Virus record (IMG/VR): IMGVR_UViG_3300005732_000007
Location: 1-33,195 of that record
Reading direction: 5' to 3' (one strand)
Source of the DNA: a virus
Length of the DNA stretch: 33,195 bases
Both the position numbers and the translations under genes were made by a program. The notes beneath the pieces are model-generated. The model worked only from the letters and a program-made list of their open reading frames with translations. It did not search any database and was not told the origin of the DNA. This document shows, in pieces, positions 4,719 to 18,507 of the stretch. Position 1 is the first letter of the stretch. The number at the start of each line of letters is the position of its first letter.

Positions 4719-4747
4719 ATACTAGTTAATCCAAATTAACTAGTAAA
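4719..4747 (-). promoter_or_regulatory. Promoter with operator palindrome for the SPFH unit
   Basis: On the minus strand: -35 TTTACT (4747-4742), exactly 17 nt, -10 TAGTAT (4724-4719). The spacer holds the operator-type palindrome TTAAT-CCAA-ATTAA (4726-4739), here extended to 10-bp perfect arms (4721-4744). It lies between the holin gene and the SPFH start, followed by a good ribosome-binding site (AAAGGAAAG). Binding to it would block RNA polymerase directly. Confidence 0.6.
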
Positions 4748-4760
4748 GCGTTTTATTAAT

Positions 4761-5186
4761 TTATTTTTTCAATAGCCCAAAGCCCTTGATGCTAACAGCA
4801 GCAAGCACAACGATTTCAAGCAACTTACCCAAGTCAACACCAAGCCCATTTAAGCTTTGTATGCCCATGTTTACTGAATCCACGTAGCGCATGTCGCCAG
4901 TGTATCCGCTCACAATAGAAGCAACAAACAGAAGCACAAAAGGCGAGGTGATGATTATAGTTACATACTCATCTTTCCACGATTCTTTCTCATTTTGCTT
5001 TGATAAAGCCTCCCACTCTGCCGCCTTTAAATCCAGCTTATAAGACGAATCTTGAGCGGCCATAGCCAGCTTATTTTTGCCTGACTCTAGCGCCTGCTTT
5101 CGATCCTGTCTTGATTTGTATGCGGTTGCTACTGGCTTAGCTACCGCCCCAAAAAAGCTTGTTAATCCAGAGATTATGTTAATCAT
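4761..5186 (-). CDS. Holin (GTA_holin_3TM-like)
   Basis: 141 aa. A weakly hydrophobic N-terminus (INIISGLTSFFGAVAKPVAT) is followed by a charged coil with the motif EWEALSKQNEKESWKDEYVT. Hydrophobic segments lie at about residues 76-95 (IIITSPFVLLFVASIVSG) and 113-138. The 'SWKDE(Y/W)VT' step before the first strong membrane helix is characteristic of the gene-transfer-agent-type 3TM holin family. Holins oligomerise in the inner membrane at a set time and release or activate the endolysin. The gene starts one base after the stop of the amidase gene (TGACATG), confirming a lysis cassette. No separate antiholin start is obvious. Confidence 0.82.
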   Translation of the reverse strand: MINIISGLTSFFGAVAKPVATAYKSRQDRKQALESGKNKLAMAAQDSSYKLDLKAAEWEALSKQNEKESWKDEYVTIIITSPFVLLFVASIVSGYTGDMRYVDSVNMGIQSLNGLGVDLGKLLEIVVLAAVSIKGFGLLKK

Positions 5187-5187
5187 G

Positions 5188-5592
5188 TCAATCTAGCCTT
5201 TTTCTTAATTTGCGTTCCCACCACGCCACAACATCAAAGTTAGGGCATGTTTTGTTCTTGTCCAAGTCGCAATGGCCAACAACACTAACACCCACTCCCA
5301 AATCGAGCGTTAGACTCCACACCAAACTTTCTAAGCTGTTCCACTGGGCTTTGCTAAATGAGTCTTTGCCCATTAAGCAAATGCCTAAAGAGTCACCATT
5401 GTGGCCGCTAACGTGCGACCCCTGCCAATAGTTAGGGCGACCCTTCTGAACATCACCATCAACACAAATAACATAGTGGTAGCCTATACCGTCCCATCCG
5501 TTTTCCTTATGCCACCTATGGATATCTTCGGCGGTATCAGGTCGCCCGTTTGGGGTGTCAGAACAATGAATTACTATTTTATTTGTTTTCAT
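5188..5592 (-). CDS. Endolysin: N-acetylmuramoyl-L-alanine amidase (T7 lysozyme-like)
   Basis: Cuts the bond between MurNAc and the stem peptide of peptidoglycan. The 134 aa from the ATG at 5592 form one Amidase_2/PGRP domain. Likely zinc ligands are H9 (VIHCSDTP), H107 (VVGHCDL) and C116 (NKTCPNFD); Y38 (GYHYV) and K114 match the catalytic Tyr and Lys of T7 lysozyme, with the same 29-residue H-to-Y spacing. There is no signal peptide or cell-wall-binding domain, so release depends on the holin next door. The frame is open further upstream, but that segment lies inside the preceding gene. The ATG two bases after that gene's TAA gives the correct domain start. Confidence 0.93.
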   Translation of the reverse strand: MKTNKIVIHCSDTPNGRPDTAEDIHRWHKENGWDGIGYHYVICVDGDVQKGRPNYWQGSHVSGHNGDSLGICLMGKDSFSKAQWNSLESLVWSLTLDLGVGVSVVGHCDLDKNKTCPNFDVVAWWERKLRKRLD

Positions 5593-5593
5593 A

Positions 5594-6313
5594 TTAAAAG
5601 GACTCATCTTGGCTTGTTGGCAGTCTAAGCATTCCCTGAGAAAGAAGCTTTTCATATAAATCTTTGCAATCGTTCGCTTTAAAATAAGTATCTTTGAATT
5701 TTTCCTGCATTTTTTCCATTGCTGTTTTTTTAACTGGCTTAAGCATTGACTTTCTAAAGCAATAAACTTGGCCTTTATACTCAACCGCCGCAAGCTCAAT
5801 GTCATTTTTGCTAAAGAACTTAACTATCTCGACATCACGCCCGATCAACTCGCCGCCACAATGCAAAATAAAACCTTGGTCGTTATTTAAAATAGCTATA
5901 TCACCTTCTTTCAATTCCGCGTTACTGTCACGCATTTTCTTTTCCTCTTGTTCTGTTTTTAGTTTGGTAAATGTGTTGTCTTCTTTTGCTTTAATTTTAA
6001 GCTTTGAAGCCTCTATAAAATCATAAAAACTAATTCCCGATTGCCTCCAGTCATTAGCTAAAAATTCAATACTGTGCTCTTCTTCGTATTGCTCTATTCC
6101 TGTTACCTTTGATGCATTGGCAGCAAATAACTTTTTAAACGCCTCTGAATTGGTTTCACCTTTCATCTTTTCGCTTAGCACCTTGTTTAAAAAAGGCCTT
6201 TGCAATATGCAGTTAGATGATCCTCTTTCTGGCTGTGGATCATAAAGTTTAGAGATAAGGTTGGGCGCAAGCTTTACCACTAGCCGCTCTTGTTTTTCCT
6301 GTGGCACGGTCAT
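5594..6313 (-). CDS. Hypothetical protein with central SH3-like segment
   Basis: 239 aa. The N-terminal third is mixed (VVKLAPNLISKLYDP). The middle is a charged helix (EASKLKIKAKEDNTFTKLK), followed by a beta-rich stretch (LKEGDIAILNNDQGFILHCG ... VEYKGQVYCFRKSML) that looks like a small SH3-type barrel, then a basic helical C-terminus. I do not recognise a family. Its start overlaps the stop of the upstream gene (ATGA), and its stop lies one base before the amidase ATG, so it is read with the lysis genes. Confidence 0.7.
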   Translation of the reverse strand: MTVPQEKQERLVVKLAPNLISKLYDPQPERGSSNCILQRPFLNKVLSEKMKGETNSEAFKKLFAANASKVTGIEQYEEEHSIEFLANDWRQSGISFYDFIEASKLKIKAKEDNTFTKLKTEQEEKKMRDSNAELKEGDIAILNNDQGFILHCGGELIGRDVEIVKFFSKNDIELAAVEYKGQVYCFRKSMLKPVKKTAMEKMQEKFKDTYFKANDCKDLYEKLLSQGMLRLPTSQDESF

Positions 6314-6603
6314 ATGATATGCTTTGGCATCATGTCAGCACGCACCTTCTCACGACGCTTAATTTCATTCTTAGCCCAGACCATGCGGCCAAATTCGCGA
6401 CGAGTGAAGCCGTTAAGGGCGTATGCCTTGTCGCCTTTTGCCGTAACCTTTTTAATTCCAGCTTTAAGCGCTGAGGCTGTGCTAGGCCATTTATTATCTA
6501 GCCATCTTACAACTATATAAAGATGATAAATTCTTTGCATTCTTGGAGTCATTTCACCGTACTCGCCTAAAAACTCCAAGCATTCCGCTTTTGTGATTTT
6601 CAT
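6310..6603 (-). CDS. Hypothetical basic helical protein
   Basis: 97 aa beginning MKITKAECLEFLGEYGEMTP, with segments RMQRIYHLYIVVRWLDNKWP and a very basic C-terminal half (KNEIKRREKVRADMM). AAAAGGA upstream of the ATG is a clear ribosome-binding site. No membrane helix or catalytic motif is seen. The charge suggests a nucleic-acid-binding role, but this is weak. It overlaps the next gene by 4 nt. Confidence 0.68.
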   Translation of the reverse strand: MKITKAECLEFLGEYGEMTPRMQRIYHLYIVVRWLDNKWPSTASALKAGIKKVTAKGDKAYALNGFTRREFGRMVWAKNEIKRREKVRADMMPKHII

Positions 6604-6628
6604 TTATTTAGTCCTTTTGTTAGTTAAA

Positions 6629-6808
6629 TTACCAAGCGCCAAACCAAGAGCCCACGCCATGAACAATTCCAATAGGGAAAAACAAAGCCCCCGCAATCAA
6701 AAAACCCCATGATGCCGTTTTAAGGCACACAAAAATATGAGTTGCCCACCCACCAAATACTCCAATAATAAAAGCAAGCGATGTAATAACTTTTAAAAAT
6801 TCTTTCAT
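6629..6808 (-). CDS. Small two-helix membrane protein
   Basis: 59 aa starting MKEFLKVITSLAFIIGVFGG. Two hydrophobic helices (about residues 5-29 and 36-52, ASWGFLIAGALFFPIGIVHG) are joined by a short turn with a lysine, followed by a small Gly/Trp tail. AAAGGAAA precedes the ATG, part of a leader shared with the SPFH and beta-clamp-like genes. It is the first gene after the operators at 6824-6870, so it is probably under the same repressor. Function unknown; a membrane-acting early protein or a second holin-like protein is possible. Confidence 0.72.
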   Translation of the reverse strand: MKEFLKVITSLAFIIGVFGGWATHIFVCLKTASWGFLIAGALFFPIGIVHGVGSWFGAW

Positions 6809-6823
6809 AACACTTTCCTTTCG

Positions 6824-6870
6824 TTAATTTAGATTAAACCTTAATTTATTATTTTGTTAACGTCAATTAA
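6824..6870 (-). promoter_or_regulatory. Promoter region with two operator palindromes
   Basis: Two TTAAY-N4-RTTAA sites: TTAATTTAGATTAA (6824-6837) and TTAACGTCAATTAA (6857-6870). A minus-strand promoter fits between them: -35 TTGACG (6866-6861), 17 nt, -10 TAAGGT (6843-6838), so one operator covers the -35 and the other abuts the -10. The same -10/operator arrangement recurs at 12343-12361. It drives the small membrane gene at 6808 and onward. Confidence 0.55.
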
Positions 6871-6872
6871 TT

Positions 6873-7307
6873 TTATCCATACAAGGCAATTAATGCCGCG
6901 TCCCGCTTGTCTTCGTTCGTGCGGCCTTCCCACTTTGTCATAGACTTGAACAAATCAGCGTTCTTTTTGGCCTTCTTGATTGTGCCTTTTAGGGGTTTGA
7001 CCATGATCACCTTTATATCTTTGGCCTCCAAGCTTTCACGAATTAACCTGGCGACCGCTTTAACCATGCCCACGTTTTGGGCAATCTTCATTTTTGCCGC
7101 TGCTGGCATAGGCCCACGCGCAAACATGGCCTTATTACTTTCCACATCTTCAAGCTTTACCACAACATCCACGCAGCCTTTTTTATACTCTGCAATAGTC
7201 TCTATTAGATCAACAAAACAAAGCGCCTCCAAGCGCTCCATTCTGCCAGCCACCACAAAAGCAACGCCGCTTTTATTTATATCTGGGTCGATTCCGATTG
7301 TTAACAT
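6873..7307 (-). CDS. RuvC-like Holliday-junction resolvase (RNase H fold)
   Basis: 144 aa. The first strand carries the catalytic Asp in LTIGIDPDINKSGVAF (D7); an acidic residue follows on strand 4 (VVVKLEDVES, E53). The C-terminus ends DKRDAALIALYG with D133/D136, the usual last metal ligands of the RuvC family. Phage RuvC-like enzymes debranch recombination and replication intermediates before packaging, which fits with the RecE/RecT pair elsewhere in this genome. GAGGCGAAA precedes the ATG. It is separated from the upstream gene by a terminator and ends just before the operator pair at 6.8 kb. The family assignment rests on motif order; the substrate is not shown. Confidence 0.85.
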   Translation of the reverse strand: MLTIGIDPDINKSGVAFVVAGRMERLEALCFVDLIETIAEYKKGCVDVVVKLEDVESNKAMFARGPMPAAAKMKIAQNVGMVKAVARLIRESLEAKDIKVIMVKPLKGTIKKAKKNADLFKSMTKWEGRTNEDKRDAALIALYG

Positions 7308-7318
7308 TTTCGCCTCTT

Positions 7319-7342
7319 AAAAACCCCTCTTATGAGGGGGTT
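7319..7342 (-). terminator. Rho-independent terminator upstream of the resolvase gene
   Basis: CCCCTC-TTAT-GAGGGG hairpin with an A/T flank. On the minus strand it reads GAGGGGTTTTT. The other side is also T-rich (GGGGGTTGTTT), so it may be bidirectional. It ends the unit that finishes with the 33-residue membrane peptide at 7345-7446. Confidence 0.8.
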
Positions 7343-7344
7343 GT

Positions 7345-7446
7345 TTATTTGCGTTTCTGTATTTTGTTTAGCGACCAAACTACAATTTTGTACGCTACAT
7401 ATCCAGAGCCTACGAATGTCAGTGCAAACACTCCAGCTTCAAGCAT
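7345..7446 (-). CDS. 33-residue single-pass membrane peptide
   Basis: A very small gene: MLEAGVFALTFVGSGYVAYK begins it, and IVVWSLNKIQKRK ends it. That is one membrane helix (about residues 4-25) with a positively charged C-terminal tail, as expected for N-out insertion. The ATG lies three bases after the TAG stop of the upstream gene, with GGAG 5 nt before it, which argues for coupled translation. A longer in-frame version starting inside the previous gene is unlikely. It is directly followed by a terminator. Role unknown. Confidence 0.6.
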   Translation of the reverse strand: MLEAGVFALTFVGSGYVAYKIVVWSLNKIQKRK

Positions 7447-7448
7447 AC

Positions 7449-8111
7449 CTACTCCACCCCATACTTTGCGGCTTGTGCGGGGGTTAGAGGTTTGCACCAT
7501 TCCACAGGGTAAACATTTCCACCACAAGTGTTTATTTTAAAATTACCGAATTCACCAGTAACCGATTCAACTACTCTAGTAGTTGTCGGTTTAGAGTTAT
7601 TAATAATTGGAAGATTAACAACAACCAAACAAGGAAAAACCCCCTCAACCTCGTACCACGGTAGGGGTTGGCGGGTTGTTATTTCACCTCTTTTAAGTTG
7701 CATTGCTATGTGGGCCTGCTCACTTTCACTGCTTTGGATAGTGCAATTGCAAGTGTGAATAAACAATATGCAACCTTCATCATCATAAAACTCACCACCA
7801 TCAGCAACAGCCTTTCCCAAATCCCAAATATCCATGTCAGTTACAGGTACTGATTTAAACTTAACTTCTTTCATATTTATTTCCTTTACGTAGTCTTCGA
7901 ATTGTTGCTTTGTGCATATTGGGTTAAAGTATGTGTCGCTAAACCCGATCCATACTGATGTTATATCTCCAACTTTGCAGTATCCTTCTAGCGAGTCACC
8001 ATCTTTTATGCACTCCGCTATAAAAGATGGCTCTCCGTCTCTAAGTATGCCGCCGACAGGCCAAACACCTCCGAAATGCTCCACCGCGTCTTTAATTGTT
8101 TTGTTTGTCAT
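7449..8111 (-). CDS. Hypothetical phage protein, two-part, unknown function
   Basis: 220 aa. The first 80 residues (MTNKTIKDAVEHFGGVWPVG ... FIAECIKDGDSLEGYCKVGD) resemble short phage proteins that start with a helix and carry 'FIAECxKDG'. A related phrase (VIAECVKDGEFV) occurs in the 82-aa protein at 11470-11718. The second part holds Cys/His residues (FIHTCNCTIQ) and ends in CKPLTPAQAAKYGVE. No catalytic motif is evident. It ends with TAG, followed closely by the small membrane peptide gene, and overlaps its upstream neighbour by 4 nt. Confidence 0.7.
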   Translation of the reverse strand: MTNKTIKDAVEHFGGVWPVGGILRDGEPSFIAECIKDGDSLEGYCKVGDITSVWIGFSDTYFNPICTKQQFEDYVKEINMKEVKFKSVPVTDMDIWDLGKAVADGGEFYDDEGCILFIHTCNCTIQSSESEQAHIAMQLKRGEITTRQPLPWYEVEGVFPCLVVVNLPIINNSKPTTTRVVESVTGEFGNFKINTCGGNVYPVEWCKPLTPAQAAKYGVE

Positions 8112-8431
8112 TGTTGGTCCTTTTTTTGTCGGTTATACTCAACTCTGTAATCTTCAATAGCTCTATCGAAAGTATATGCTGCCCAGATCAAAGGGCATAT
8201 AGGCGCAAGAAATAAAAGTAATGGAAACTGAATAAACCAAACAACAGGAGTTTCAAGCCCATTAAAACAAGAGATTTCACATTTGATCCTGCTTGGGCAT
8301 TTTTTATACTGCCATAAAATCTCTTTTAAAAACCCCCTTCCCACAATAGCTTTAGGGGAGTTGCCATTTGGGTCAAACCATTCCGACCTAGGTTTATTTA
8401 TCTCATTTTTTAAAAACTCATTAAAGCTCAT
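8108..8431 (-). CDS. Membrane protein, unknown
   Basis: 107 aa from the ATG at 8431 (MSFNEFLKNEINKPRSEWFD), placed there because GGGGGTG lies at good distance. A GTG one codon earlier is possible. A long hydrophobic stretch at about residues 63-86 (VVWFIQFPLLLFLAPICPLI) is flanked by a soluble N-terminal part with CPSRIKCEISC and a basic C-terminus (DYRVEYNRQKKDQQ). The hydrophobic region could be one long or two short helices. The ATG overlaps the TGA of the upstream gene. Function unknown. Confidence 0.68.
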   Translation of the reverse strand: MSFNEFLKNEINKPRSEWFDPNGNSPKAIVGRGFLKEILWQYKKCPSRIKCEISCFNGLETPVVWFIQFPLLLFLAPICPLIWAAYTFDRAIEDYRVEYNRQKKDQQ

Positions 8432-8703
8432 CACTCACCCCCTTTTAGTGGTTTATCTGTTCTGATGGTTCTGATGGGTTTGATGACTTCAACCTCAAAC
8501 CCAAACCTACCTACCTGTTTTCCGTGAATTCCACAGTAAAAAAACTGATGGCCGTTTCTTTTTATTTTTCTATTCGCCTTTCTGCTACACCTTTTATCAA
8601 CACCAAGAAAGCCACAACTATAGTTTTCACACCTTACAAATCCGTTTGCATCTCGTTCATTTTCTTTGTTTAGTTCTCTAATTTTATCCTCAATGCCCAC
8701 CAT
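8431..8703 (-). CDS. Cys/His-containing small protein, unknown
   Basis: 90 aa from the ATG at 8703 (MVGIEDKIRELNKENERDAN); a GTG at 8700 or 8721 is also possible, because GGAGG sits very close to the ATG. C25, C30, C39, H52, C57 and H60 could form a zinc site (VRCENYSC, RCS, NGHQFFYCGIHG). The C-terminus ends PLKGGE, and its last 21 nt, including the stop and the next ribosome-binding site, are almost identical to the end of the gene at 15348-15725. It overlaps the upstream gene by 14 nt. Confidence 0.65.
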   Translation of the reverse strand: MVGIEDKIRELNKENERDANGFVRCENYSCGFLGVDKRCSRKANRKIKRNGHQFFYCGIHGKQVGRFGFEVEVIKPIRTIRTDKPLKGGE

Positions 8704-8905
8704 CCACCTCCAAATGCTCACCCAGTGTGTAGGCTATAACATCAACAACGCCTGAATCAGGATACTTCATCCAGTAGTTTGCAACCGCAAGCCTTCTGTG
8801 GCTTTTCTTATTTAACATCATAATTTCACCGTCAGAAAATTTAACCCCCAAAATCAAGGCTGGCACATCATTTCGGAAATCCCAGTCGTACCATTTAAGT
8901 TTCAT
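8690..8905 (-). CDS. Small 'KLKWYDWD' protein, paralogue of the gene at 15348
   Basis: 71 aa: MKLKWYDWDFRNDVPALILG opens the protein, VDVIAYTLGEHLEVDGGH closes it. The first nine residues, and the phrase (D)(V/I)IAYTLGE, are shared with the plus-strand protein at 15348-15725. The first 27 nt of the two genes are identical. Function unknown; no membrane helix or metal site is present in this copy. The start overlaps the stop of the upstream gene (ATGA). Confidence 0.7.
   Translation of the reverse strand: MKLKWYDWDFRNDVPALILGVKFSDGEIMMLNKKSHRRLAVANYWMKYPDSGVVDVIAYTLGEHLEVDGGH
8879..8905. repeat. 27-bp inverted repeat, left copy
   Basis: The first 27 coding bases of the gene ending at 8905 match exactly, in inverted orientation, the first 27 coding bases of the plus-strand gene at 15348. 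It marks a recent duplication or cassette exchange between the two arms. Confidence 0.9.
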
Positions 8906-9105
8906 TGCTTGATCCTTGGTTTTGTTAGTTGTTTTATCTGCTCATATGTCTCTTTTACCTTAATGCAAACATAATCATCTTGAGCAAAAAGAAGAAAAGA
9001 GATAGTTGTATTGCCATCACTATCTACAATTATGTCGCTCACCACATCTAAATTGATTAAGGTTTTACCAACCTTAATGCATGTAACCTCTATAAAATTT
9101 GACAT
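8902..9105 (-). CDS. FlbD-like small beta protein, unknown function
   Basis: 67 aa reading MSNFIEVTCIKVGKTLINLD, then VVSDIIVDSDGNTTISFLLF and IKVKETYEQIKQL. The order (F-I-E-V-T, 'G-K-x-x-I-N', a hydrophobic strand, then 'I-x-V-K-E-T-Y-E-Q-I') resembles FlbD-type small proteins that recur in phages without known role. I assign only the fold-level resemblance. It overlaps the next gene by 4 nt. Confidence 0.62.
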   Translation of the reverse strand: MSNFIEVTCIKVGKTLINLDVVSDIIVDSDGNTTISFLLFAQDDYVCIKVKETYEQIKQLTKPRIKQ

Positions 9106-9119
9106 AACCCTTCCTCTAA

Positions 9120-9572
9120 TTAGTTTTGTATTTTTGACAAAAATGACTTAAGCGATTCCTCTTCTTTTTTTGCAACTTTTTTTGCAAGAATTTTGCCGGC
9201 GCTACTTACATCTAAACCCTTGATTTTACACTCCTCTATACTTTCTAGTAGAAGCTTATTCATAAATTCTTTACTACGCTTTTCATCTTCTTTGCGTCCT
9301 TCCTCGTATTTTTTATCTCTTTGCTCTTCAAACTGTGATATTAAATCAATCCTTCTAGCTTCTATCATTGATAGATCGCTTTCGCAAAACCATGCTTGAT
9401 GGGTTCCGTACTCCCTTATAAGCAAGCCATAACTTGCTTCTGTTTTAGACTCATTTCCATGCTCAGTATCGTCATACAGGACAATAGCCTTTTTGCCACT
9501 GCATGGACTGTCACCCATATCACTAGATAGCTGAACCAAATCACCCTTTACAAACTTAGGAATTATTCTCAT
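9120..9572 (-). CDS. Hypothetical protein: small beta barrel plus coiled coil
   Basis: 150 aa. The N-terminal half (FVKGDLVQLSSDMGDSPCSG, KKAIVLYDD, SYGLLIREYGTHQAWFCESD) looks like an SH3/KOW-type barrel, with the recurrent phage phrase 'YGLLIREYGTHQAWFxExDL'. The C-terminal half is a charged helical coil (QFEEQRDKKYEEGRKEDEKR). It is the first gene after the operator pair at 9614-9649, so it is probably directly repressed. Function unknown. Confidence 0.68.
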   Translation of the reverse strand: MRIIPKFVKGDLVQLSSDMGDSPCSGKKAIVLYDDTEHGNESKTEASYGLLIREYGTHQAWFCESDLSMIEARRIDLISQFEEQRDKKYEEGRKEDEKRSKEFMNKLLLESIEECKIKGLDVSSAGKILAKKVAKKEEESLKSFLSKIQN

Positions 9573-9613
9573 GTTCTCGCGCCTTTTAAGTTTTTCGTTT
9601 CAATAAACAGATA

Positions 9614-9656
9614 TTAACTCTAATTAATTATCTTATTAATTTAGATTAACACACAA
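9614..9656 (-). promoter_or_regulatory. Promoter region with two operator palindromes
   Basis: TTAACTCTAATTAA (9614-9627) and TTAATTTAGATTAA (9636-9649); the second is identical to the copy at 6824. A minus-strand promoter reads -35 TTGTGT (9656-9651), 18 nt containing the operator, then -10 GATAAT (9632-9627). It lies just downstream of a terminator and in front of the gene starting at 9572. Confidence 0.58.
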
Positions 9657-9660
9657 GACC

Positions 9661-9691: not shown

Positions 9692-9697
9692 ATTCGA

Positions 9698-11008: not shown

Positions 11009-11473
11009 TTAATCAAACCTGTAGTTTTCTGAGACAAATTCTTGCGTACCATCGATTATCACTGACCCATATCTATCTTTTGTCAAATCAGAAAATCGCT
11101 TTCCGCTTAACAAATTAAGGGAAAGATCTAGTTCCTCTAGCTTTCGCTTAAGATGACTCATATGTCTTTGTTTAATAAATATTAAATGATTAAACGCTTT
11201 TTCCTCTGAATCAAAAGCGACTCTACTTCCAGTTTTTAAAATCCTTTTAATGTCGATTTTTGATCTTTTTGCTTTCTGAAATTGTGTTTCTTTGTCTATT
11301 TTTGGGTAGCGATTCATTCTATTTAAATTGAACTCATCAGCACAAAAATAAAAACAAGGCGTTTCGTGAAATGCAAACAGTGTTGTTTTATATATTTCCA
11401 TGCCATATTCGGTAGGAATTAACTTCATCGCATAAAACTTATTGGCAACATCTTTATCTATATAATTACTCAC
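11009..11473 (-). CDS. Hypothetical protein (GTG start)
   Basis: 154 aa. The GTG at 11473 overlaps the upstream TGA (GTGA) and has AGGAG 7 nt before it. The protein is mixed alpha/beta with a basic middle (QKAKRSKIDIKRILKTGSRV) and a helix KRKLEELDLSLNLLSGKRFS. It carries FAFHETPCFYFCADEFNLNR near the N-terminus, a segment of the kind seen when a protein handles a translated 'activity code' residue string in phage anti-restriction families, but the resemblance is too weak to name. Function unknown. Confidence 0.6.
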   Translation of the reverse strand: MSNYIDKDVANKFYAMKLIPTEYGMEIYKTTLFAFHETPCFYFCADEFNLNRMNRYPKIDKETQFQKAKRSKIDIKRILKTGSRVAFDSEEKAFNHLIFIKQRHMSHLKRKLEELDLSLNLLSGKRFSDLTKDRYGSVIIDGTQEFVSENYRFD

Positions 11474-11749: not shown

Positions 11750-12313
11750 TTAAAGTCTCATTGGCATAACAACGGCAATAGCATTGTATTCTGGTGATCT
11801 GAATTTAATCTGTATTGCATTAGATTGACCTTGAAAACGCATTTCAACGCCAGCATGAATAATACCTAATTCGTTTTGAGCTTGCGCCACAACGTCCATG
11901 TAATGAGGATTAATGCCTATCCTATCTATCGGAAGTAGCTCATTTTCTTTTGTTACGCTTTCATAATTTGTATATTTTTTATCAATTAAATCGAAACTTC
12001 TAACATCAGCCATGATAGAGCCATGACCGTTATACATACGCACAAAACCACACTTATCATCAAAAAACACAAACTCAACTTCATAAGCTTTTTTAGGCAA
12101 TTTTGTGCCGTTGATTCGAACAATCAAAGATTCTTCAAGATCCTTAAATGGATCGTGATCGACCTTGATTAAAACATGACCATTAGACGCAACCACACAG
12201 CCCTTTTTATCAAACAAGATACCTGTAAGCTGTTCCCTTACATCACGCCTTGAACAGAACAAGCGCGCTGCTTTCACTATTGCCGCAGGCAATTTAATCG
12301 TTTTGTTTTGCAT
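11750..12313 (-). CDS. Beta sliding-clamp-like protein (short)
   Basis: 187 aa, about half of bacterial DnaN. Residues 25-51 (VREQLTGILF ... GCVVASNGHVLIKV) parallel the clamp phrase 'hMLtGvLle...lraVATDGHRLA'. The final residues AVVMPMRL reproduce the C-terminus of bacterial beta clamp (VVMPMRL), which forms part of the partner-binding cleft. The middle has the strand/helix rhythm of a clamp domain, but only one to one-and-a-half domains fit. It could be a processivity or decoy clamp that captures or displaces host polymerase partners (inference). The gene is the first after an operator-overlapped promoter and has a strong AAGGAAAG ribosome-binding site. Confidence 0.78.
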   Translation of the reverse strand: MQNKTIKLPAAIVKAARLFCSRRDVREQLTGILFDKKGCVVASNGHVLIKVDHDPFKDLEESLIVRINGTKLPKKAYEVEFVFFDDKCGFVRMYNGHGSIMADVRSFDLIDKKYTNYESVTKENELLPIDRIGINPHYMDVVAQAQNELGIIHAGVEMRFQGQSNAIQIKFRSPEYNAIAVVMPMRL

Positions 12314-12342: not shown

Positions 12343-12384
12343 TTAATCTGGATTAACCTTAACCCACCTAATCAAGATTGTAAA
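12343..12384 (-). promoter_or_regulatory. Promoter with operator for the clamp-like gene
   Basis: Minus-strand -35 TTTACA (12384-12379), 17 nt, -10 TAAGGT (12361-12356), immediately followed by the palindrome TTAATCTGGATTAA (12343-12356). This is nearly the same geometry as the unit at 6.8 kb, including the unusual -10 TAAGGT. The -10 is a weak match to consensus, so the exact start site is uncertain. Confidence 0.55.
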
Positions 12385-12398
12385 CCTAGATTAATAAA

Positions 12399-12412
12399 TT
12401 AATTTGAATTAA
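12399..12412. promoter_or_regulatory. Second operator palindrome, overlapping the stop of the 12590 gene
   Basis: TTAATTTGAATTAA is a perfect TTAAY-N4-RTTAA site; a further partial copy (TTAATCCTGATTA) overlaps it to the right at about 12409. It lies 43 nt upstream of the site nearest the clamp-like gene and could give cooperative binding. Confidence 0.5.
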
Positions 12413-12590
12413 TCCTGATTATTGGTTTAACCATGATTTCAGAATCGAACTTTAAATATTTATCAAATTGCGGAACCGTTGCGCATAGTAAAAAATTTGA
12501 ATTAGGTTTTTTTGGCACTACGGACAACTGATATTTTTTTCCGGCCCACTGGAATTTATCACCAGGTTTAAGCGTGTTTAGTTTTTGCAT
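12399..12590 (-). CDS. Small beta-rich hypothetical protein
   Basis: 63 aa: MQKLNTLKPGDKFQWAGKKY, then QLSVVPKKPNSNFLLCATVP and VKPIIRINSN. 'L-K-P-G-D-K-F-x-W-x-G-K-x-Y' is a common opening of small SH3-like phage proteins with unknown function. The stop codon lies in an operator-type palindrome. It overlaps the upstream gene by 13 nt. Confidence 0.65.
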   Translation of the reverse strand: MQKLNTLKPGDKFQWAGKKYQLSVVPKKPNSNFLLCATVPQFDKYLKFDSEIMVKPIIRINSN

Positions 12591-13041: not shown

Positions 13042-13043
13042 AA

Positions 13044-13799
13044 CTACCAATCCGTATCATTAATATTTGTTAGTGCGTCGCTTACTGCATCCTTAGCCGC
13101 CTTTGCAGGCTGCTGACTAATTTGCGGTTGTTGCGTCGCGTTTTGGTTTATCCTGGATATCCAGCCATTTACCGCTGAATGCCAATCCTTCATTTTATTT
13201 TTGCCAACCATCCACCCGTTTGACTCGTAGTGACTAAAAAACTTATCCGGTTCACTTCGATCTATCAGGATGTTTTTTGCAATGGCTCTTTCCTCAAAAT
13301 AATCGACCACCTCTTGATTGGAGGGTGAAACAAATCTCTTTTTCGGGGATTTATCCCCATTATCTTTATTAGTTGGTTTATGGTTATTGGTTATTGGTTT
13401 ATGGTTATTGGTTAGTTGCTCATTTGTTGACTCTGTGTTCAACGCCTGTTCAACACCTGTGTCACCCTTCAAAGCCTTCTCACGCCTAGCTTTTGCCGAT
13501 GCTTTCCCCGCCTTACTTTTATTTTTTGCATTGGATTTGAATTTTTTTATTTCAGAATCAATTCTTTTTTGTTTAAAAACATTTTCAGAAAACGTAAAAA
13601 ATTTACCTAAAACGTATTCAACAGCAGACACATGTTCAACGAGTCCAATTTCCCGTGCAACGTTTGTTACACATCCGTCCAACGGCTGTTCATTTAAATA
13701 GTAAAGGTCAAGCAAGCGCCTATATGCCAAATCTTCCATGGGCGATAGCCTGCTAGTGTGGCTAGCATAGTCCCCTATATTGAATTGGTAATAGTGCAT
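13044..13799 (-). CDS. Replication-initiation-type protein (DUF1376/YdaU-like)
   Basis: 251 aa. Residues 1 to about 90 (MHYYQFNIGDYASHTSRLSP, EDLAYRRLLDLYYLNEQPLD) are diagnostic of DUF1376, the YdaU group found in the replication block of lambdoid prophages. A basic linker (KAGKASAKARREKALKGD) and a repeated hydrophilic stretch (TNNHKPITNNHKPT) follow. The C-terminal domain includes FVSPSNQEVVDYFEERAI and ESNGWMVGKNKMKDWHSAVN, like the DNA-binding half of lambda-O-type initiators. It probably binds the phage origin, perhaps inside its own gene. No helicase or helicase loader follows, so host helicase recruitment is presumably direct. It ends in TAG. Confidence 0.85.
   Translation of the reverse strand: MHYYQFNIGDYASHTSRLSPMEDLAYRRLLDLYYLNEQPLDGCVTNVAREIGLVEHVSAVEYVLGKFFTFSENVFKQKRIDSEIKKFKSNAKNKSKAGKASAKARREKALKGDTGVEQALNTESTNEQLTNNHKPITNNHKPTNKDNGDKSPKKRFVSPSNQEVVDYFEERAIAKNILIDRSEPDKFFSHYESNGWMVGKNKMKDWHSAVNGWISRINQNATQQPQISQQPAKAAKDAVSDALTNINDTDW
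13375..13416. repeat. Two tandem 21-bp repeats inside the replication gene, candidate origin iterons
   Basis: Plus-strand units at 13375-13395 and 13396-13416 share their first 19 bases exactly (GGTTTATGGTTATTGGTTA) and are rich in one-strand purine/T asymmetry. Direct repeats inside the initiator gene are how lambda-type origins are built. Here they encode the TNNHKP repeat of the protein linker. Only two full units are present, so origin function is a hypothesis. Confidence 0.5.
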
Positions 13800-13801
13800 A
13801 T

Positions 13802-14008
13802 TTAGACCTCAACCTCACCAAGCGCGATAAATTCGCTCAACTTCATGTCGAAAAAATCAGCAAGCTTAACCAAGTTATTCATAGTTATGCCGTCACCATT
13901 GCACCACTTAGAAACCTGCTGATAACCAACACCTAAAGCGCTCGCTATTTCTGCTGGCTTTTTGTCTTTTTCTAGCATTGCCTTTCTTAATGATTTTTTT
14001 AAATTCAT
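13802..14008 (-). CDS. Small XRE-family HTH regulator
   Basis: 68 aa; a single helix-turn-helix domain of the Xre/Cro-C1 type: KPAEIASALGVGYQQVSKWC is the HTH core, then NNLVKLADFFDMKLSEFIAL. There is no C-terminal peptidase or dimerisation domain as in S24 repressors. It is the first gene of the leftward operon, directly before the replication gene, i.e. the position of cro/cII in lambda-like phages. It probably binds the divergent promoter region next to it. AGGGG precedes the ATG. Whether it represses or activates cannot be told from sequence. Confidence 0.85.
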   Translation of the reverse strand: MNLKKSLRKAMLEKDKKPAEIASALGVGYQQVSKWCNGDGITMNNLVKLADFFDMKLSEFIALGEVEV

Positions 14009-14034
14009 AATTTACCCCTTGATTGGAATGTTGA

Positions 14035-14063
14035 AATATATTGCACCCAAGACCAAAAGTAAA
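14035..14063 (-). promoter_or_regulatory. Leftward early promoter
   Basis: Minus-strand -35 TTTACT (14063-14058), exactly 17 nt, -10 TATATT (14040-14035), placing the transcript start near 14028, 20 nt before the HTH gene. It is divergent from the rightward promoter, with -35 boxes about 22 bp apart. No TTAAY-N4-RTTAA operator lies here, so this promoter is probably controlled by another protein. Confidence 0.65.
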
Positions 14064-14085
14064 GGAAAATTGTATAAAAATGCAT

Positions 14086-14114
14086 TTGACAAATTATTGC
14101 GCTTGCCTTACATT
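14086..14114 (+). promoter_or_regulatory. Rightward early promoter
   Basis: Perfect -35 TTGACA (14086-14091), 17-nt spacer, -10 TACATT (14109-14114). The expected start near 14121 leaves a short leader before the ribosome-binding site (AAAAGGA) and the ATG at 14148. This is the strongest-looking sigma70 promoter in the window. Confidence 0.75.
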
Positions 14115-14147
14115 CTAACCATCAAAACAAAACAAAAGGACATAGCA

Positions 14148-14738
14148 ATGCATTATGACGAGTTAATGAAGCGCTTAAACTTGGATAGAGATAGAGCTAA
14201 GCTAGAAGCAAAGAAAATCAGCTACTCAGTAACGCAAATTGAAAAAGACAAATGGCAAGAAATGCGTAATAGCGGTATGTCACTAAACAAAATATCTGAA
14301 CAAGAAGGCAAACCAGCAGCTTTAATTTCAGCACATACAAAGCGCCCTATGAAAAGTGAGTTGTCTTATCAGTGGCAAGACCTAAGAAATTATGGCTTTA
14401 CTGGTGCATGGATAGCCGATCAATACCAGGTTAGCCCCGCAACTATTGCCCGCTCCACTTTAGACCCTAAAAGACGTCGAGAAGAATTGGCGCTATGGCG
14501 TGAAGAGTGGGTAAAACTTCGTCAGGCTGGTGTTCCTGCAAAATGGATAGCAAAAGAATATGGGGTGCATATTTCATACATCTACAAAATAGCGCCAACT
14601 AAAAAAACAACGGTTTCAGCAAGTCAAATGTATAAGGCTGATTTAACAAAAGAATTATTAATAACGCTTGAGGGTGATTTGATTGGCAAGTTTGTGCCAC
14701 TAAAGCGTGACAGTAACGCAGAAGAAAAGGAGTCGTAG
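14148..14738 (+). CDS. Protein with three tandem helix-turn-helix-like repeats
   Basis: 196 aa from the ATG at 14148 (AAAAGGA upstream; further upstream the frame is open but lies in the promoter). Three repeats share the pattern W-x2-(L/M)R-x2-G-x5-I-x9-12-I: W36 (KWQEMRNSGMSLNKISEQEG), W76 (QWQDLRNYGFTGAWIADQYQ) and W121 (EWVKLRQAGVPAKWIAKEYG). Each looks like a homeodomain/resolvase-type HTH with recognition helices around residues 57, 97 and 142. A DNA-binding regulator or origin/partition protein is likely. It is the first product of the rightward promoter, so it is probably a control protein. No named family is recognised. Confidence 0.75.
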   Translation: MHYDELMKRLNLDRDRAKLEAKKISYSVTQIEKDKWQEMRNSGMSLNKISEQEGKPAALISAHTKRPMKSELSYQWQDLRNYGFTGAWIADQYQVSPATIARSTLDPKRRREELALWREEWVKLRQAGVPAKWIAKEYGVHISYIYKIAPTKKTTVSASQMYKADLTKELLITLEGDLIGKFVPLKRDSNAEEKES

Positions 14739-14740
14739 CA

Positions 14741-15133
14741 ATGACATATGAAGTTTTTGAGTACCTATTATCACTTAAGACTTGGCCGGATTGTGAAATT
14801 AACCGCCATGACGCAGTGCTGCCAGCCGAGCCAGACGATATGATTTGGTGCCACTCTGTTGAGCACTACTCTTGGGTTTTGAGCTATTTAAATCCTTGCG
14901 ATGGTGATATGACAATAGATATGGATACATGGGTTAAAACTGTAAATATAAATAAATCAAAGTCAATAACTTTAGGTAATATGACAATAAGAAAAAGCCT
15001 TATTGATGCGTTTCAAGATACAGGCTCAGGTATCACGGTTCTTGTAAAAGGAATATGGATAGAAAACAAAATTATCTCTAGTGGCATTAGAAATAACCTA
15101 ACTAATGTACTTAAAAAAGAACTAGGAAGCTAA
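14741..15133 (+). CDS. Hypothetical protein
   Basis: 130 aa: MTYEVFEYLLSLKTWPDCEI, then a middle with MIWCHSVEHYSWVLSYLNPC and a C-terminal helix (RNNLTNVLKKELGS). It looks soluble. AAAAGGAG lies upstream, and the gene starts 2 nt after the previous stop, so it is operon-linked to the HTH protein. No family or catalytic motif is recognised. Confidence 0.68.
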   Translation: MTYEVFEYLLSLKTWPDCEINRHDAVLPAEPDDMIWCHSVEHYSWVLSYLNPCDGDMTIDMDTWVKTVNINKSKSITLGNMTIRKSLIDAFQDTGSGITVLVKGIWIENKIISSGIRNNLTNVLKKELGS

Positions 15134-15137
15134 GTTA

Positions 15138-15347
15138 ATGAAAAACGAACCACTCTACAGCATAGCCGACTACGCCGAATTGGTCGGCCAAAACTACGAC
15201 ACGCTGCGCAAGAAGATAACGCGCCTTAAGATTAGTCTAAACCCTGTTGCCATTGAAAAAGACACGAACGTCAAGCCTGCCACTTTTAGAGGCAAGGCTA
15301 AGCACTATAAATTGAGTGAATTAAAACGAAAATTGAAGGGGGTTTGA
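15138..15347 (+). CDS. Small helix-turn-helix-like protein
   Basis: 69 aa: YSIADYAELVGQNYDTLRKK resembles the first two helices of MerR/excisionase-type winged HTH proteins. A basic wing (KPATFRGKAKHYKLSELKRK) and a very basic end follow. It may be an excisionase-like or architectural DNA-binding protein, although no integrase is present to pair with it. A good ribosome-binding site (AGGAAG) precedes the ATG, and the stop TGA abuts the next ATG. Confidence 0.68.
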   Translation: MKNEPLYSIADYAELVGQNYDTLRKKITRLKISLNPVAIEKDTNVKPATFRGKAKHYKLSELKRKLKGV

Positions 15348-15374
15348 ATGAAACTTAAATGGTACGACTGGGAT
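15348..15374. repeat. 27-bp inverted repeat, right copy
   Basis: Identical, in inverted orientation, to 8879-8905; both are the first nine codons of a KLKWYDWD protein. The sequences upstream of the two ATGs are unrelated, so the homology begins at the start codon. Confidence 0.9.
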
Positions 15375-15725
15375 GGTGAGGGTGAGATTCCGCCATACGT
15401 TAAAGGTGTTAGACTTAGGGGCGGAATAGAAAGGATTCCTGTCAGCTCGATTTACTCTCTTGGATGCATGTGGAAAATAAACAAAGATGATTTTGACATT
15501 ATCGCCTACACACTGGGCGAGCAGGTGGAGTATTGTGATGGCTGCCATGGCGATAACTTTGTCGCTGTTACGTGTTGTGGTGGTCATGAATGTGGATGTA
15601 TGGGTCAGCCTATCGATTTTGAACCTTGCGGAAAATGCAATAGTGACGGAAGTAAAGATGCTGATACTGATCTTAAAAAAGCGTTTCCGTTTTTCTTTGG
15701 CGAGCCATTAGAAGGGGGTGAGTGA
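15348..15725 (+). CDS. Cysteine-rich zinc-ribbon-like protein, 'KLKWYDWD' family
   Basis: 125 aa. The N-terminus MKLKWYDWDGEGEIPPYVKG and the phrase DIIAYTLGEQVEYCDGCHGD relate it to the minus-strand protein at 8690-8905. It then has an extra cysteine module: C63, C66, C76, C77, C82, C84, C94 and C97 (CDGCH, CCGGHECGC, CGKC), like a DnaJ-type zinc ribbon. The C-terminus (EPLEGGE) and its DNA match the end of the gene at 8431-8703. It is thus a mosaic of two neighbouring genes of the other arm plus a zinc domain. Function unknown; GGGGGTTTG is the ribosome-binding site. Confidence 0.75.
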   Translation: MKLKWYDWDGEGEIPPYVKGVRLRGGIERIPVSSIYSLGCMWKINKDDFDIIAYTLGEQVEYCDGCHGDNFVAVTCCGGHECGCMGQPIDFEPCGKCNSDGSKDADTDLKKAFPFFFGEPLEGGE

Positions 15726-15726
15726 A

Positions 15727-15975
15727 ATGGAATGGATAAACATAAAAAAGGATGGTTACCCGCCAAAGCAGAACTTTAAAAAAGAAAGAAGGCGTTACAT
15801 GGTTTATTCTCCAAGGTATCAAGGCTGGATAGTTCGATGCTGGTATAACGGTGGTAAAAATTTTGGATGTGATCTTGTCGGGTCTATGGTATCAGGTGCA
15901 ACTCATTATCGAGTTGCTAAAAGATCTGAACACCAAGGAGATTTAACGTCTCAAGAAATTAAGGACTTACCATGA
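15727..15975 (+). CDS. DUF551-like small protein
   Basis: 82 aa from the ATG at 15727 (MEWINIKKDGYPPKQNFKKE), chosen because AGGGGGTG is 8 nt away; a GTG at 15718 would add three residues. The W-I-x-I-x-x-D-x-x-P opening, a strand (RYMVYSPRYQGWIVRCWYNG) and the ending phrase VSGATHYRVAKRSEHQ resemble DUF551, a small domain common in phages with no known role. The stop overlaps the next ATG (ATGA). Confidence 0.65.
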   Translation: MEWINIKKDGYPPKQNFKKERRRYMVYSPRYQGWIVRCWYNGGKNFGCDLVGSMVSGATHYRVAKRSEHQGDLTSQEIKDLP

Positions 15976-16262
15976 CCCTCGACCAATACCTAGGAACCGT
16001 GGCGTGGTTGTACATATTAATGATCTTGTGGATTATTTTTAACCGTATCACAGCGCCTTTACATGTTCAGAAACAAAAAAAGAAACATTGGCTTATCTTT
16101 ATAACGCCTTTTTTTCTTCCCACAATATTTGTGGATCTTAAACTAGTTAATTTTGGGCCGTTGGTAGCTTGGATTATGACAATTTCAATATGGTCTGCCT
16201 ACCCACTTTACCTATGGGTGTCAACCAGTTTTGCGTTAAACATTAATTACATATGGGGTTAA
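15972..16262 (+). CDS. Multi-pass membrane protein, unknown
   Basis: 96 aa with three hydrophobic segments: about residues 9-25 (VAWLYILMILWIIFN), 39-58 (HWLIFITPFFLPTIFVDLKL) and 63-88 (GPLVAWIMTISIWSAYPLYL), and a basic loop (QKQKKKHW) between the first two. A membrane location is clear. It is the last gene of the rightward accessory operon, before a terminator. A role in superinfection exclusion is possible; nothing specific supports it. Confidence 0.68.
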   Translation: MTLDQYLGTVAWLYILMILWIIFNRITAPLHVQKQKKKHWLIFITPFFLPTIFVDLKLVNFGPLVAWIMTISIWSAYPLYLWVSTSFALNINYIWG

Positions 16263-16308
16263 GGTGTATTAGCTTATATCATCAAAAAAATATGGGGGCC
16301 GTTTTAAA

Positions 16309-16345
16309 TAAAAAAGCCATCAAACCTAAAAAAGGAATGATGGCT
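16309..16345 (-). terminator. Terminator for the cro-like gene
   Basis: AGCCATC (16315-16321) pairs with GATGGCT (16339-16345) around a 17-base loop. On the minus strand it is followed by TTTTTTATTT. It lies just downstream of the minus-strand cro-like gene and inside the leader of nothing else. Confidence 0.68.
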
Positions 16346-16386
16346 AAAAACAGACTCTAACAAAAGGAAGCAATCACAAAATGACT

Positions 16387-16413
16387 ACGCGCTTAAACTT
16401 AGCGCGTTTTTTT
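16387..16413 (+). terminator. Terminator of the rightward accessory operon
   Basis: Perfect stem ACGCGCT / AGCGCGT with 7-base loop TAAACTT, then seven T on the plus strand. It lies across the 3' end of the cro-like gene on the opposite strand. It stops rightward transcription before it runs antisense through cro. Confidence 0.88.
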
Positions 16414-16590
16414 GTTTGTGTAAAGCGATTCATCAATTTTAAGTTTGCCCCTTGTCTTCACTTGGATTTGATATGCTCGCAACTTTGGCACCAATTTCCC
16501 CCAATTGCAGAAAGCGACAGGCGTAATGTTAAGCGCCTTGCAAACATTGTTAGGTGTTCCGTAATAGTTTAATACATCTTCTTTATACAT
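16399..16590 (-). CDS. cro: Cro-like repressor
   Basis: 63 aa: the helix-turn-helix is GTPNNVCKALNITPVAFCNW, followed by GKLVPKLRAYQIQVKTRGKL and a C-terminus LYTNKKTR that recalls the NKKT tail of lambda Cro. The size and the layout (helix, HTH, 'P-x-x-R-A-Y-x-x-x-x-x-T-x-G-x-L') fit Cro/YdaS-type repressors. The gene is alone on its strand, flanked by terminators. It is preceded by at least three copies of the TTAAY-N4-RTTAA palindrome within 100 bp, which suggests autoregulation and control of the divergent recombination operon. Family assignment good; operator assignment is inference. Confidence 0.82.
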   Translation of the reverse strand: MYKEDVLNYYGTPNNVCKALNITPVAFCNWGKLVPKLRAYQIQVKTRGKLKIDESLYTNKKTR

Positions 16591-16593
16591 AAT

Positions 16594-16645
16594 TTAATCC
16601 CCGTTAATTTCTTGTAAATCTACATTAATAAGTTTATTTAGTCAA
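16594..16645 (-). promoter_or_regulatory. cro promoter with two operators
   Basis: Minus strand: -35 TTGACT (16645-16640), 17 nt, -10 TAGATT (16622-16617). One palindrome with a single mismatch (TAAATCTACATTAA, 16615-16628) overlaps the -10. A perfect one (TTAATCCCCGTTAA, 16594-16607) lies at the expected start site. Occupation of either would shut off the gene. Confidence 0.65.
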
Positions 16646-16649
16646 TTTG

Positions 16650-16689
16650 TTAATTTAGGTTTGCGTTGTTAGTTAATCTAAATTAATAT
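16650..16689 (+). promoter_or_regulatory. Promoter of the recombination operon with operators
   Basis: Plus strand: -35 TTGCGT (16661-16666), 17 nt, -10 TAATAT (16684-16689). The palindrome TTAATCTAAATTAA (16673-16686) covers the spacer and -10. A half-degenerate copy (TTAATTTAGGTTTG, 16650-16663) covers the -35. It drives the RecE-like gene at 16716. Confidence 0.62.
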
Positions 16690-16715
16690 GTCTAAAAACA
16701 CAAAAGGTTAGCACA

Positions 16716-17639
16716 ATGGATTTTTTCGAAGAAATGGAGCTAGAACAGTTAGACGAATTTGATTTTATCTGGACTGTTGAAAGCTTAAATAAAACGCTTG
16801 ACGGCTTAAAGGTTGGCGAAAGGTTTGTTATTGATGATCTACCAAATGACATTTACCACCGATGCGGAGGTGTCTCATGTAGCAAGCTAAAGTTGTTCAT
16901 AGAATGCCCAGCAAAATACAAAGCTAAGTACATTGATAAAATCATTCCCGACAGAGAGAAGGACTATTTTAATTTTGGCAATGCTGCGCATACCTTGGTA
17001 CTTGAGCCGCACTTGTTTGACTCGACATACATTAAGCAGCCTGAGCACATAGGAACAAGGCGCGGCAAAAAGTGGGACAAGTGCAAATCAGAGGCAGATA
17101 GCAAAGGGCAAGTAGTCTTAACCGCGGCACAGTGGGAAGACATGCCAATCTTAAAGCAATCTATTTCTAACACGCCGAACGCCCTAAGACTGACACGTGG
17201 CGGCATTGCTGAGCGCTCTATCTTTGTAAGAGATAAAGAAACGGGATTGATTTTAAAATGCCGTCCTGACTACATGATTAAAGATTTAATAGTTGATGTT
17301 AAAACAACAAAATCAGCGAACCCAAAATGGATAGGTCACGACTTTAAAAAGCTTGGCTATCATGTTCAGGATGCAATGTATTCTGATATTGCAAAGGCTA
17401 GCGAGTTTGTATTTTTGGCCATCGAATCAGAAAGGCCATTTTTAATAACTGCGCCTTTGCGCATGTCAGACCGTACAAAGCGCCTAGGTTTTTTGAAGTA
17501 TCGAACAGCATTAAGAGATTTAAAAGAGTGCATAGATTCTGGGGTGTGGCATGGTTACGCAGACGAATTGGTAAGCGTAGATTTAAATAAATTTGAGCAA
17601 GAAGAATTAAATAAACTGGAGAGTAATTTTTATGAGTGA
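16716..17639 (+). CDS. RecE-like exonuclease (PD-(D/E)XK, PF12684 type)
   Basis: 5'-3' double-strand exonuclease of a phage recombination system. In the 307 aa, after an acidic N-terminus, YHRCGGVSCSKLKLFIECPA is the typical opening ('xSxSxLxxxxxCPAxY'). FGNAAHTLVLEP gives H92, CRPDYM gives D185, and VDVKTT gives D194-x-K196, the PD-(D/E)XK core. GYHVQDAMYSD follows as the Q-x3-Y motif. Resected ends would be loaded with the RecT-like protein encoded next; the genes overlap by 8 nt. AAAAGG precedes the ATG. Family assignment is firm; RecE-type versus YqaJ-type is less so. Confidence 0.88.
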   Translation: MDFFEEMELEQLDEFDFIWTVESLNKTLDGLKVGERFVIDDLPNDIYHRCGGVSCSKLKLFIECPAKYKAKYIDKIIPDREKDYFNFGNAAHTLVLEPHLFDSTYIKQPEHIGTRRGKKWDKCKSEADSKGQVVLTAAQWEDMPILKQSISNTPNALRLTRGGIAERSIFVRDKETGLILKCRPDYMIKDLIVDVKTTKSANPKWIGHDFKKLGYHVQDAMYSDIAKASEFVFLAIESERPFLITAPLRMSDRTKRLGFLKYRTALRDLKECIDSGVWHGYADELVSVDLNKFEQEELNKLESNFYE

Positions 17640-18474
17640 GTTAATGCAAAAGCAAGTTAATACTTTTTTAACGCCTAAAGATTCAGCAGAGGCCTTTACT
17701 ATTGCTGAGGGCTTGGCTAAATCTAGCATGGTGCCAAAGCAGTTTATTAATAAGCCCATGGATATCGTGGTGTGTATGGCTATGGGTGCCGAGCTTGGTT
17801 TTCAGCCGTTACAGTCACTACAAAATATTGCCGTTATCAATGGTCGCCCTTCCGTGTGGGGGGATGCGTTCCGCGCCTTGATTATGGGCGCGCCTGACCT
17901 TGTGGGGTTTCGTGAGTGGTTCGACGAACAGGGGGCGGCGCATTGCTATATTAGCCGAAAACTTGCTTCTGGTGCCGTTATTGAGTCCACACAATCCTTT
18001 AGCCAGCAAGATGCTAAAACGGCAGGGCTATGGGGCAAACAGGGACCTTGGACGCAATACCCGCGCCGTATGATGCAATGGCGCGCCCTTGGCTTTGCTG
18101 GTCGTGACATGTACGCCGATAGATTGCGTGGCATCTGGATCGATCATGAAGCGCGAGACATGCCCGAAGAGAAAGATGTAACGCCACAGCAAACAGCACA
18201 ACAAGCCGAACAAACCGACACACTAAGTCAAGTTTTAGGCGGCGAATTGATGGAAGAAAAAGCGCCTGACGATTTGTTTTTTAATCAAGCATCTAAAGCT
18301 ATATCAGATTGTAAAGACATGGATTCTCTGGCAGAAGTTAGCAACTTAATTAATGAAGGGAAAAGCGAATTAACAGATAAGCAAAACGAACAATTGCGCG
18401 AGCAATGGAAAGCGAAAAAAGAATGGGTTTTAAGCGGTGCAAATCTTGAGACTGACGACGTACCTTTTGAATAA
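17632..18474 (+). CDS. recT: RecT-like single-strand annealing protein
   Basis: 280 aa. The segment MAMGAELGFQPLQSLQNIAV, INGRPSVWGDAFRALIMGAP and GPWTQYPRRMMQWRALGFAG match the conserved core of the RecT/Redbeta-type annealases, which pair complementary single strands and form rings on DNA. The last 100 residues are a charged, helical, low-conservation tail, ending ETDDVPFE, which looks like the acidic tip of bacterial SSB (DDIPF) with one extra residue. It is overlapped with the exonuclease gene, the expected recET-type pair. RecT is the best label, though related SSAP families cannot be excluded. Confidence 0.85.
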   Translation: MSELMQKQVNTFLTPKDSAEAFTIAEGLAKSSMVPKQFINKPMDIVVCMAMGAELGFQPLQSLQNIAVINGRPSVWGDAFRALIMGAPDLVGFREWFDEQGAAHCYISRKLASGAVIESTQSFSQQDAKTAGLWGKQGPWTQYPRRMMQWRALGFAGRDMYADRLRGIWIDHEARDMPEEKDVTPQQTAQQAEQTDTLSQVLGGELMEEKAPDDLFFNQASKAISDCKDMDSLAEVSNLINEGKSELTDKQNEQLREQWKAKKEWVLSGANLETDDVPFE

Positions 18475-18478
18475 ATAG

Positions 18479-18507
18479 TTGTAAGTGGCGTTAACTTGGG
18501 TTAACTT
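18479..18507 (+). promoter_or_regulatory. Operator palindrome and weak promoter before the coiled-coil gene
   Basis: TTAACTTGGGTTAA (18491-18504) is a TTAAY-N4-RTTAA site. A weak promoter can be drawn around it: TTGTAA (18479-18484), 17 nt, TAACTT (18502-18507). The site sits directly after recT and may separate the third gene of the operon for independent control. Confidence 0.45.

Follow-up and report, generated by a model that had tools for sequence, protein, structure and literature searches.

The stretch analyzed here (the window) is the whole of IMG/VR virus record IMGVR_UViG_3300005732_000007, 33,195 bases, which is probably complete because it carries an end repeat of 68 bases. Its genes run leftward almost throughout, with rightward exceptions at 14149-16262 and 16716-19661, and intergenic sequence totals 1,220 bases (3.7% of the genome). 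The capsid protein shares 79% identity with its counterpart in Marinomonas phage P12026 and 57-65% with capsids of Pseudoalteromonas, Alteromonas and Idiomarinaceae phages, which places the window phage among small, tailed marine phages with gammaproteobacterial hosts. On the minus strand at 16399-16590 lies a cro-like gene for a 63-amino-acid protein of the P22 type. Six gaps, each ahead of the first gene of an operon, contain sites of the palindrome TTAAY-N4-RTTAA (TTAAYNNNNRTTAA), spread across 14 kb. These palindromes are very probably operators for the P22-type Cro that the phage itself encodes; this protein would repress cro and at least six early operons.

In exact form, the palindrome occurs 11 times, compared with 0.59 +/- 0.79 copies in shuffled sequences (largest shuffle, 4). 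Nine of these copies are entirely intergenic and the one at 12399, at the edge of a gap, shares bases with the stop codon of gene 12399-12590, in line with an earlier reading of the DNA letters alone (the sequence-only reading), which had placed nearly all copies in gaps. Counted by location, gaps hold ten exact copies against 0.10 expected (maximum of 2 in 2,000 shuffles), an excess between genes of ~100-fold; the two counted inside genes compare with 0.56 expected under synonymous-codon shuffling and are consistent with chance. The palindrome is thus not equally frequent in genes; equal frequency was what the sequence-only reading had named as speaking against operators. The single intragenic copy, at 11172-11185 within gene 11009-11473, was judged a chance match outside the network, given the 0.56 intragenic matches expected.

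An unbiased search over all arms of 4-6 bases and all spacings ranked TTAAT-N4-ATTAA first in the window genome, and a search restricted to gaps located it in five different ones, compared with a maximum of two after shuffling. Whole-genome counts allowing up to one mismatch gave only modest significance because AT-rich genes add noise; exact and gap-restricted tests were therefore used. The matrix scan named beforehand as a check was run in leave-one-out form and placed all ten gap-associated exact sites within the top 12 positions of the genome, 11 of which lie in gaps, the remaining one being the 12399 site. It also added one-mismatch copies at 12381, 12409 and 16615, plus a weak one at 16650. 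Site centers read YYRR in seven of ten cases. All nine copies originally described as good proved to be exact matches, as did the site at 18491, previously listed as a TTAAC variant (half-site TTAAC/GTTAA), and the copies at 16615 and 16650 listed as single-mismatch or partial are a one-mismatch site and a weak partial site, respectively. That account lacked the exact copy at 11172 as well as two one-mismatch copies, at 12381 and 12409.

The cro-like gene product matches the Pfam family P22_Cro (PF14549; 67.2 bits against a cut-off of 30.2, E value 1.1e-18, residues 3-59 of 63) and phrog_409, and its recognition helix reads ITPVAFCNWGK. Among PDB sequences searched with phmmer, P22 Cro (1rzs) was nearest (3.7e-11). 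An AlphaFold2 model (predicted local distance difference test score 84.7) has four helices and no strand of three or more residues, and Foldseek ranked P22 Cro first (template modeling score 0.82), followed by N15 Cro. Sequence and model together clearly identify the protein as a P22-type Cro with a predicted all-helical, P22/N15-like fold. A trait of the Cro family, half-sites 4 bp apart at the gene's own promoter, is present in the cro gap, at 16594, 16615 and 16673. Divergent from cro lies an exonuclease gene rather than one for a CI/C2 repressor, and a scan of early and lysis genes recognized no CI-, S24- or c2-like repressor. The same scan revealed no integrase or plasmid partition genes, although it covered part of the genes only and distant forms could escape it.

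Two scans, run independently, converged on one other phage that combines this helix and palindrome, a prophage of Fangia hongkongensis (IMGVR 2515154119_000001; NZ_KB902270.1). Searching all of IMG/VR (2.9 million viral contigs) for palindromes in close pairs yielded nine stretches, one of which, the Fangia prophage, carries P22_Cro; the remaining matches were dismissed as AT-rich or simple-repeat sequence without P22_Cro. In a separate scan for the helix pattern PVAxxNWGxx[IV]P, which returned 4 viral and 33 genome stretches, this prophage alone had a P22_Cro. Overall identity between its Cro and the window Cro is 33%, with recognition helices SPVAITNWG and TPVAFCNWG, respectively. An exact palindrome and one-mismatch copies lie between cro and a CI-like gene, at the cro promoter, a further exact copy follows the CI-like gene, and two exact copies stand 12 kb off, ahead of an operon encoding a YqaJ nuclease and a RecT-like protein; the latter shows 47% identity over 184 amino acids to the window RecT-like protein. 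Gaps of the prophage hold four exact copies against 0.24 expected, a count reached in 0 of 1,000 shuffles, and the exact palindrome was found in 0 of 88 other cro upstream regions. As a side observation, a CsrA-like gene (by-eye reading of the translation) at 43322-43495 of the prophage record is located just ahead of the palindrome-bearing 43.5 kb gap.

For operator geometry across the family, we took the 130 upstream bases of each of 43 distinct P22_Cro genes and counted inverted repeats with 5-base arms by spacing. Spacing 4 was enriched (43 seen versus 6.2 expected); spacings 11 (35) and 6 (13) likewise rose above shuffles, probably as a by-product of these operators being repeated. Examples are TTAAG-N4-CTTAA in P22, GTAGG-N4-CCTAC in mEp390 and GTAAG-N4-CTTAC in a Morganella phage. 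The window palindrome shares this 5-N4-5 layout and differs in its half-site letters. Among Cro proteins with readable operators, N in the window and Fangia helices occupies the position of Q or G in all the others, and the last half-site letter is Y for these two and G for the rest. From these sequences we infer that the change from Q or G to N may cause the change from G to Y. Hall et al. (2005) reportedly related Cro helices to half-sites. The sequence-only reading had proposed a Cro-like protein as the binder, and the P22_Cro match, the 5-N4-5 geometry and the helix-palindrome pairing in Fangia argue well for this prediction.

The gap between cro and the exonuclease gene, at 16.6 kb, contains four predicted operators: TTAATCCCCGTTAA (16594-16607) in the cro leader; the one-mismatch site TAAATCTACATTAA (16615-16628; matrix score 13.7), covering the -10 of the candidate cro promoter TTGACT-17-TAGATT (16617-16645, minus strand; a consensus match only), which is the best promoter-like pair of this gap; the weak partial site TTAATTTAGGTTTG (16650-16663; score 8.9), directly upstream of the candidate cro -35; and TTAATCTAAATTAA (16673-16686), on the spacer and -10 of a candidate rightward exonuclease/recT promoter. 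The corresponding plus-strand genes encode a RecE/exonuclease VIII-like PD-(D/E)XK nuclease (16716-17639; Pfam DUF3799, phrog_412) and a RecT-like annealing protein (17632-18474; phrog_561). One site in the 18.5 kb gap, TTAACTTGGGTTAA (18491-18504), precedes the rightward gene that follows them, a phrog_1376 family member (18543-19661, plus strand). Four sites also occupy the gap at 12.34-12.42 kb: TTAATCTGGATTAA (12343-12356), ahead of a leftward operon that extends from 12313 to ~9698 and starts with a phrog_3007 gene (11750-12313, minus strand); the one-mismatch site TAAACCTAGATTAA (12381-12394; score 14.4), overlapping a candidate -35; TTAATTTGAATTAA (12399-12412), the copy on the stop codon; and, overlapping it, the one-mismatch site TTAATCCTGATTAT (12409-12422; score 12.0). 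With four sites of score at least 8, this gap equals that of cro, which had been taken for the densest cluster.

The 9.6 kb gap holds two sites, TTAACTCTAATTAA (9614-9627), ahead of gene 9120-9572 (minus strand), the first of a leftward operon from 9572 to ~6873, and TTAATTTAGATTAA (9636-9649), directly downstream of a leftward terminator-like hairpin (9691-9664). Two more lie at 6.8 kb, a second TTAATTTAGATTAA (6824-6837), ahead of a small membrane protein-like gene that begins a leftward operon (6629-6808, minus strand; phrog_7319), and TTAACGTCAATTAA (6857-6870), which overlaps candidate -35 elements. The single 4.7 kb site, TTAATCCAAATTAA (4726-4739), forms the center of a longer dyad, ACTAGTTAAT-N4-ATTAACTAGT. 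It is contained in the 17-nucleotide spacer of a leftward promoter-like pair (TTTACT-17-TAGTAT, 4719-4747), as the sequence-only reading had noted, ahead of an SPFH/prohibitin-like gene (3728-4684, minus strand). A lone in-frame TAG close to the start (4571-4573) interrupts this otherwise open gene and is either a true break or a sequencing error. Site-free gaps include those holding terminators and 14009-14148. The latter is a second divergent control region, between a helix-turn-helix (HTH) gene of the HTH_3 family (13802-14008) and the rightward operon 14149-16262; it lacks TTAAY sites, has the region's best promoter match (TTGACA-17-TACATT) and may be a second switch.

Under the proposed mechanism, cro and the other early operons would be transcribed early after infection. 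A Cro dimer would contact each TTAAY half-site with one of its recognition helices, as suggested by the P22/N15 Cro fold, and, with sites on or beside promoters, Cro would repress them as it accumulates, binding in the five remaining gaps as well as at its own promoter region. The predicted repressed set comprises cro, the rightward exonuclease/recT operon, the gene after it and four leftward operons, and the outcome would be a shutdown of early and middle transcription, with one very small protein controlling most early operons together. We infer Cro binding, its timing and repression rather than activation, the last from the position of the sites on leaders, spacers and -10 elements. According to its annotation, P22 Cro switches off early genes in lytic growth.

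Searches with Cro, recT, the exonuclease and the 11750-12313 protein found no true close relative among viral contigs; a single Cro match was dismissed because it spanned only 17 residues, on a contig without P22_Cro. The TTAAY network was also not found in capsid relatives (P12026, Pq0, SL25, PHS21, 1N2-2, PB15 and several metagenome contigs). Pseudoalteromonas phages SL25, PHS21 and Pq0 carry a different dispersed inverted repeat of ~40 bases, roughly AATACCGTTTWGTTATANNNNTATAACWAAACGGTATT, in three to six gaps per phage, frequently within the structural region and next to short genes of opposite orientation. In Pseudoalteromonas phage vB_Pun_Y3, a tandem palindromic unit (TACCC/GGGTA every 22-26 bases) at 46194-46299, within the replication protein O gene, probably represents origin iterons.

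Several observations weigh against operators of the phage's own Cro. P12026, the closest capsid relative, has a different Cro-like gene and no TTAAY sites, and independent relatives with the same helix and site number one. The phages behind the 43 P22_Cro genes are related, so that these perhaps represent seven independent operator types rather than 43. The overlap with a -35/-10 pair that the sequence-only reading claimed for most sites exists in every gap, with the best promoter-like pair overlapping at least one site in each of the six; the pairs are nonetheless weak evidence, as they mostly score no better than in shuffled gaps, with only those of cro (P=0.06) and 6.8 kb (P=0.04) near or better, and promoter positions are therefore putative. 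A consensus promoter scan of the window was uninformative, with fewer promoter-like pairs than in shuffles. Finally, the phage encodes the second HTH protein (13802-14008) mentioned above. As a 68-amino-acid Cro/C1-type DNA-binding protein beside a divergent promoter region, it could itself bind the palindromes, leaving the Cro-like protein with targets elsewhere. However, its own gap, 14009-14148, has no exact or one-mismatch copy, whereas the cro gap has several, and the Fangia palindrome adjoins a P22_Cro with the same recognition helix, so that we consider binding by this second protein improbable.

A host regulator of the FNR/CRP type with similar half-sites would let the phage track host physiology. 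The FNR consensus, TTGAT-N4-ATCAA, has the same 5-N4-5 spacing as the window palindrome. Each half-site nonetheless departs from the FNR letters, and the helix-operator pairing favors Cro. In addition, the whole Fangia genome contains 47 palindromes against 38 of a reversed control and is not enriched, and six of the 47 fall in the 12.1 kb of prophage around cro, which makes a host regulator unlikely there; overall, we regard this explanation as very improbable. We give hardly any credence to a role in transcription termination (as stoperators) or in DNA partition or replication, even though several copies occur in a small genome, one of them on a stop codon and another after a terminator-like hairpin. 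The stoperators of mycobacteriophage L5 are asymmetric, oriented and mostly within transcription units (PMC6550527, PMC9283540), whereas the window sites are palindromic and all ten stand at gaps ahead of genes. These are distributed over 14 kb before separate operons rather than in iteron-like clusters, and the proteins scanned included no ParA/ParB match. Operators of the phage's own Cro thus remain our preferred reading. A broader proposal is about as likely as not: that Cro alone regulates nearly all early operons in a phage without CI-type repressor or integrase and that the PVAxxNWG-TTAAY pairing adds a new class of specificity to the recognition code of Cro proteins.

Among known systems, P22 Cro shares with the window protein its Pfam family and fold, the 14-bp layout of the operator core and operators on cro's own promoter. 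P22 operators, however, occur only at OL/OR around c2, whereas the window sites precede at least six operons across 14 kb and no c2/CI-like repressor was recognized among the genes scanned; half-site position 5 is Y in the window and G in P22, and the helices read TPVAFCNWG and SDAAVSQWK, respectively. The Fangia prophage is alike in P22_Cro, PVAxxNWG helix and TTAAY-N4-RTTAA both at the cro promoter and ahead of a recT operon farther away, but differs in its CI-like S24 repressor, in having only three site-bearing gaps and in its 33% identical Cro. The all-alpha P22/N15-type Cro proteins of PY54 and phiKO2 each recognize just one operator, and do so with high specificity (PMC4488713, PMC4997575), which is the reverse of dispersal over many sites. 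The L5 comparison drawn in the sequence-only reading holds in that a single phage repressor has many binding sites along the genome and fails in that the ~30 L5 sites are mostly off promoters, mostly in one orientation and stop elongation (PMC6550527, PMC9283540); palindromic and gap-confined, the window sites are not stoperators. Closer in layout is the P1 C1 repressor, with 22 operators scattered genome-wide that repress lytic genes (PMC8546580), although the 17-mer sites of P1 are asymmetric and their repressor is an immunity repressor of another kind, which maintains lysogeny.

The system does not fit the usual definition of a lambdoid switch, since a CI partner divergent from cro was not found among the genes scanned. 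Cro is usually described as one half of such a local switch, with few operators flanking cI. A Cro regulon of at least six operons without a recognized partner would show a Cro role freed from the lysis-lysogeny decision, and one helix paired with one operator in two distant phages would offer a clean and testable example for sequence-based prediction of Cro operators, a route to reading early-gene control in uncultured phages. The components are known, as in P22; their wide dispersal without a recognizable lysogeny repressor is unusual, as known P22/N15-like Cro proteins act at two operator clusters or a single site and the window palindromes form dispersed sites ahead of at least six operons.

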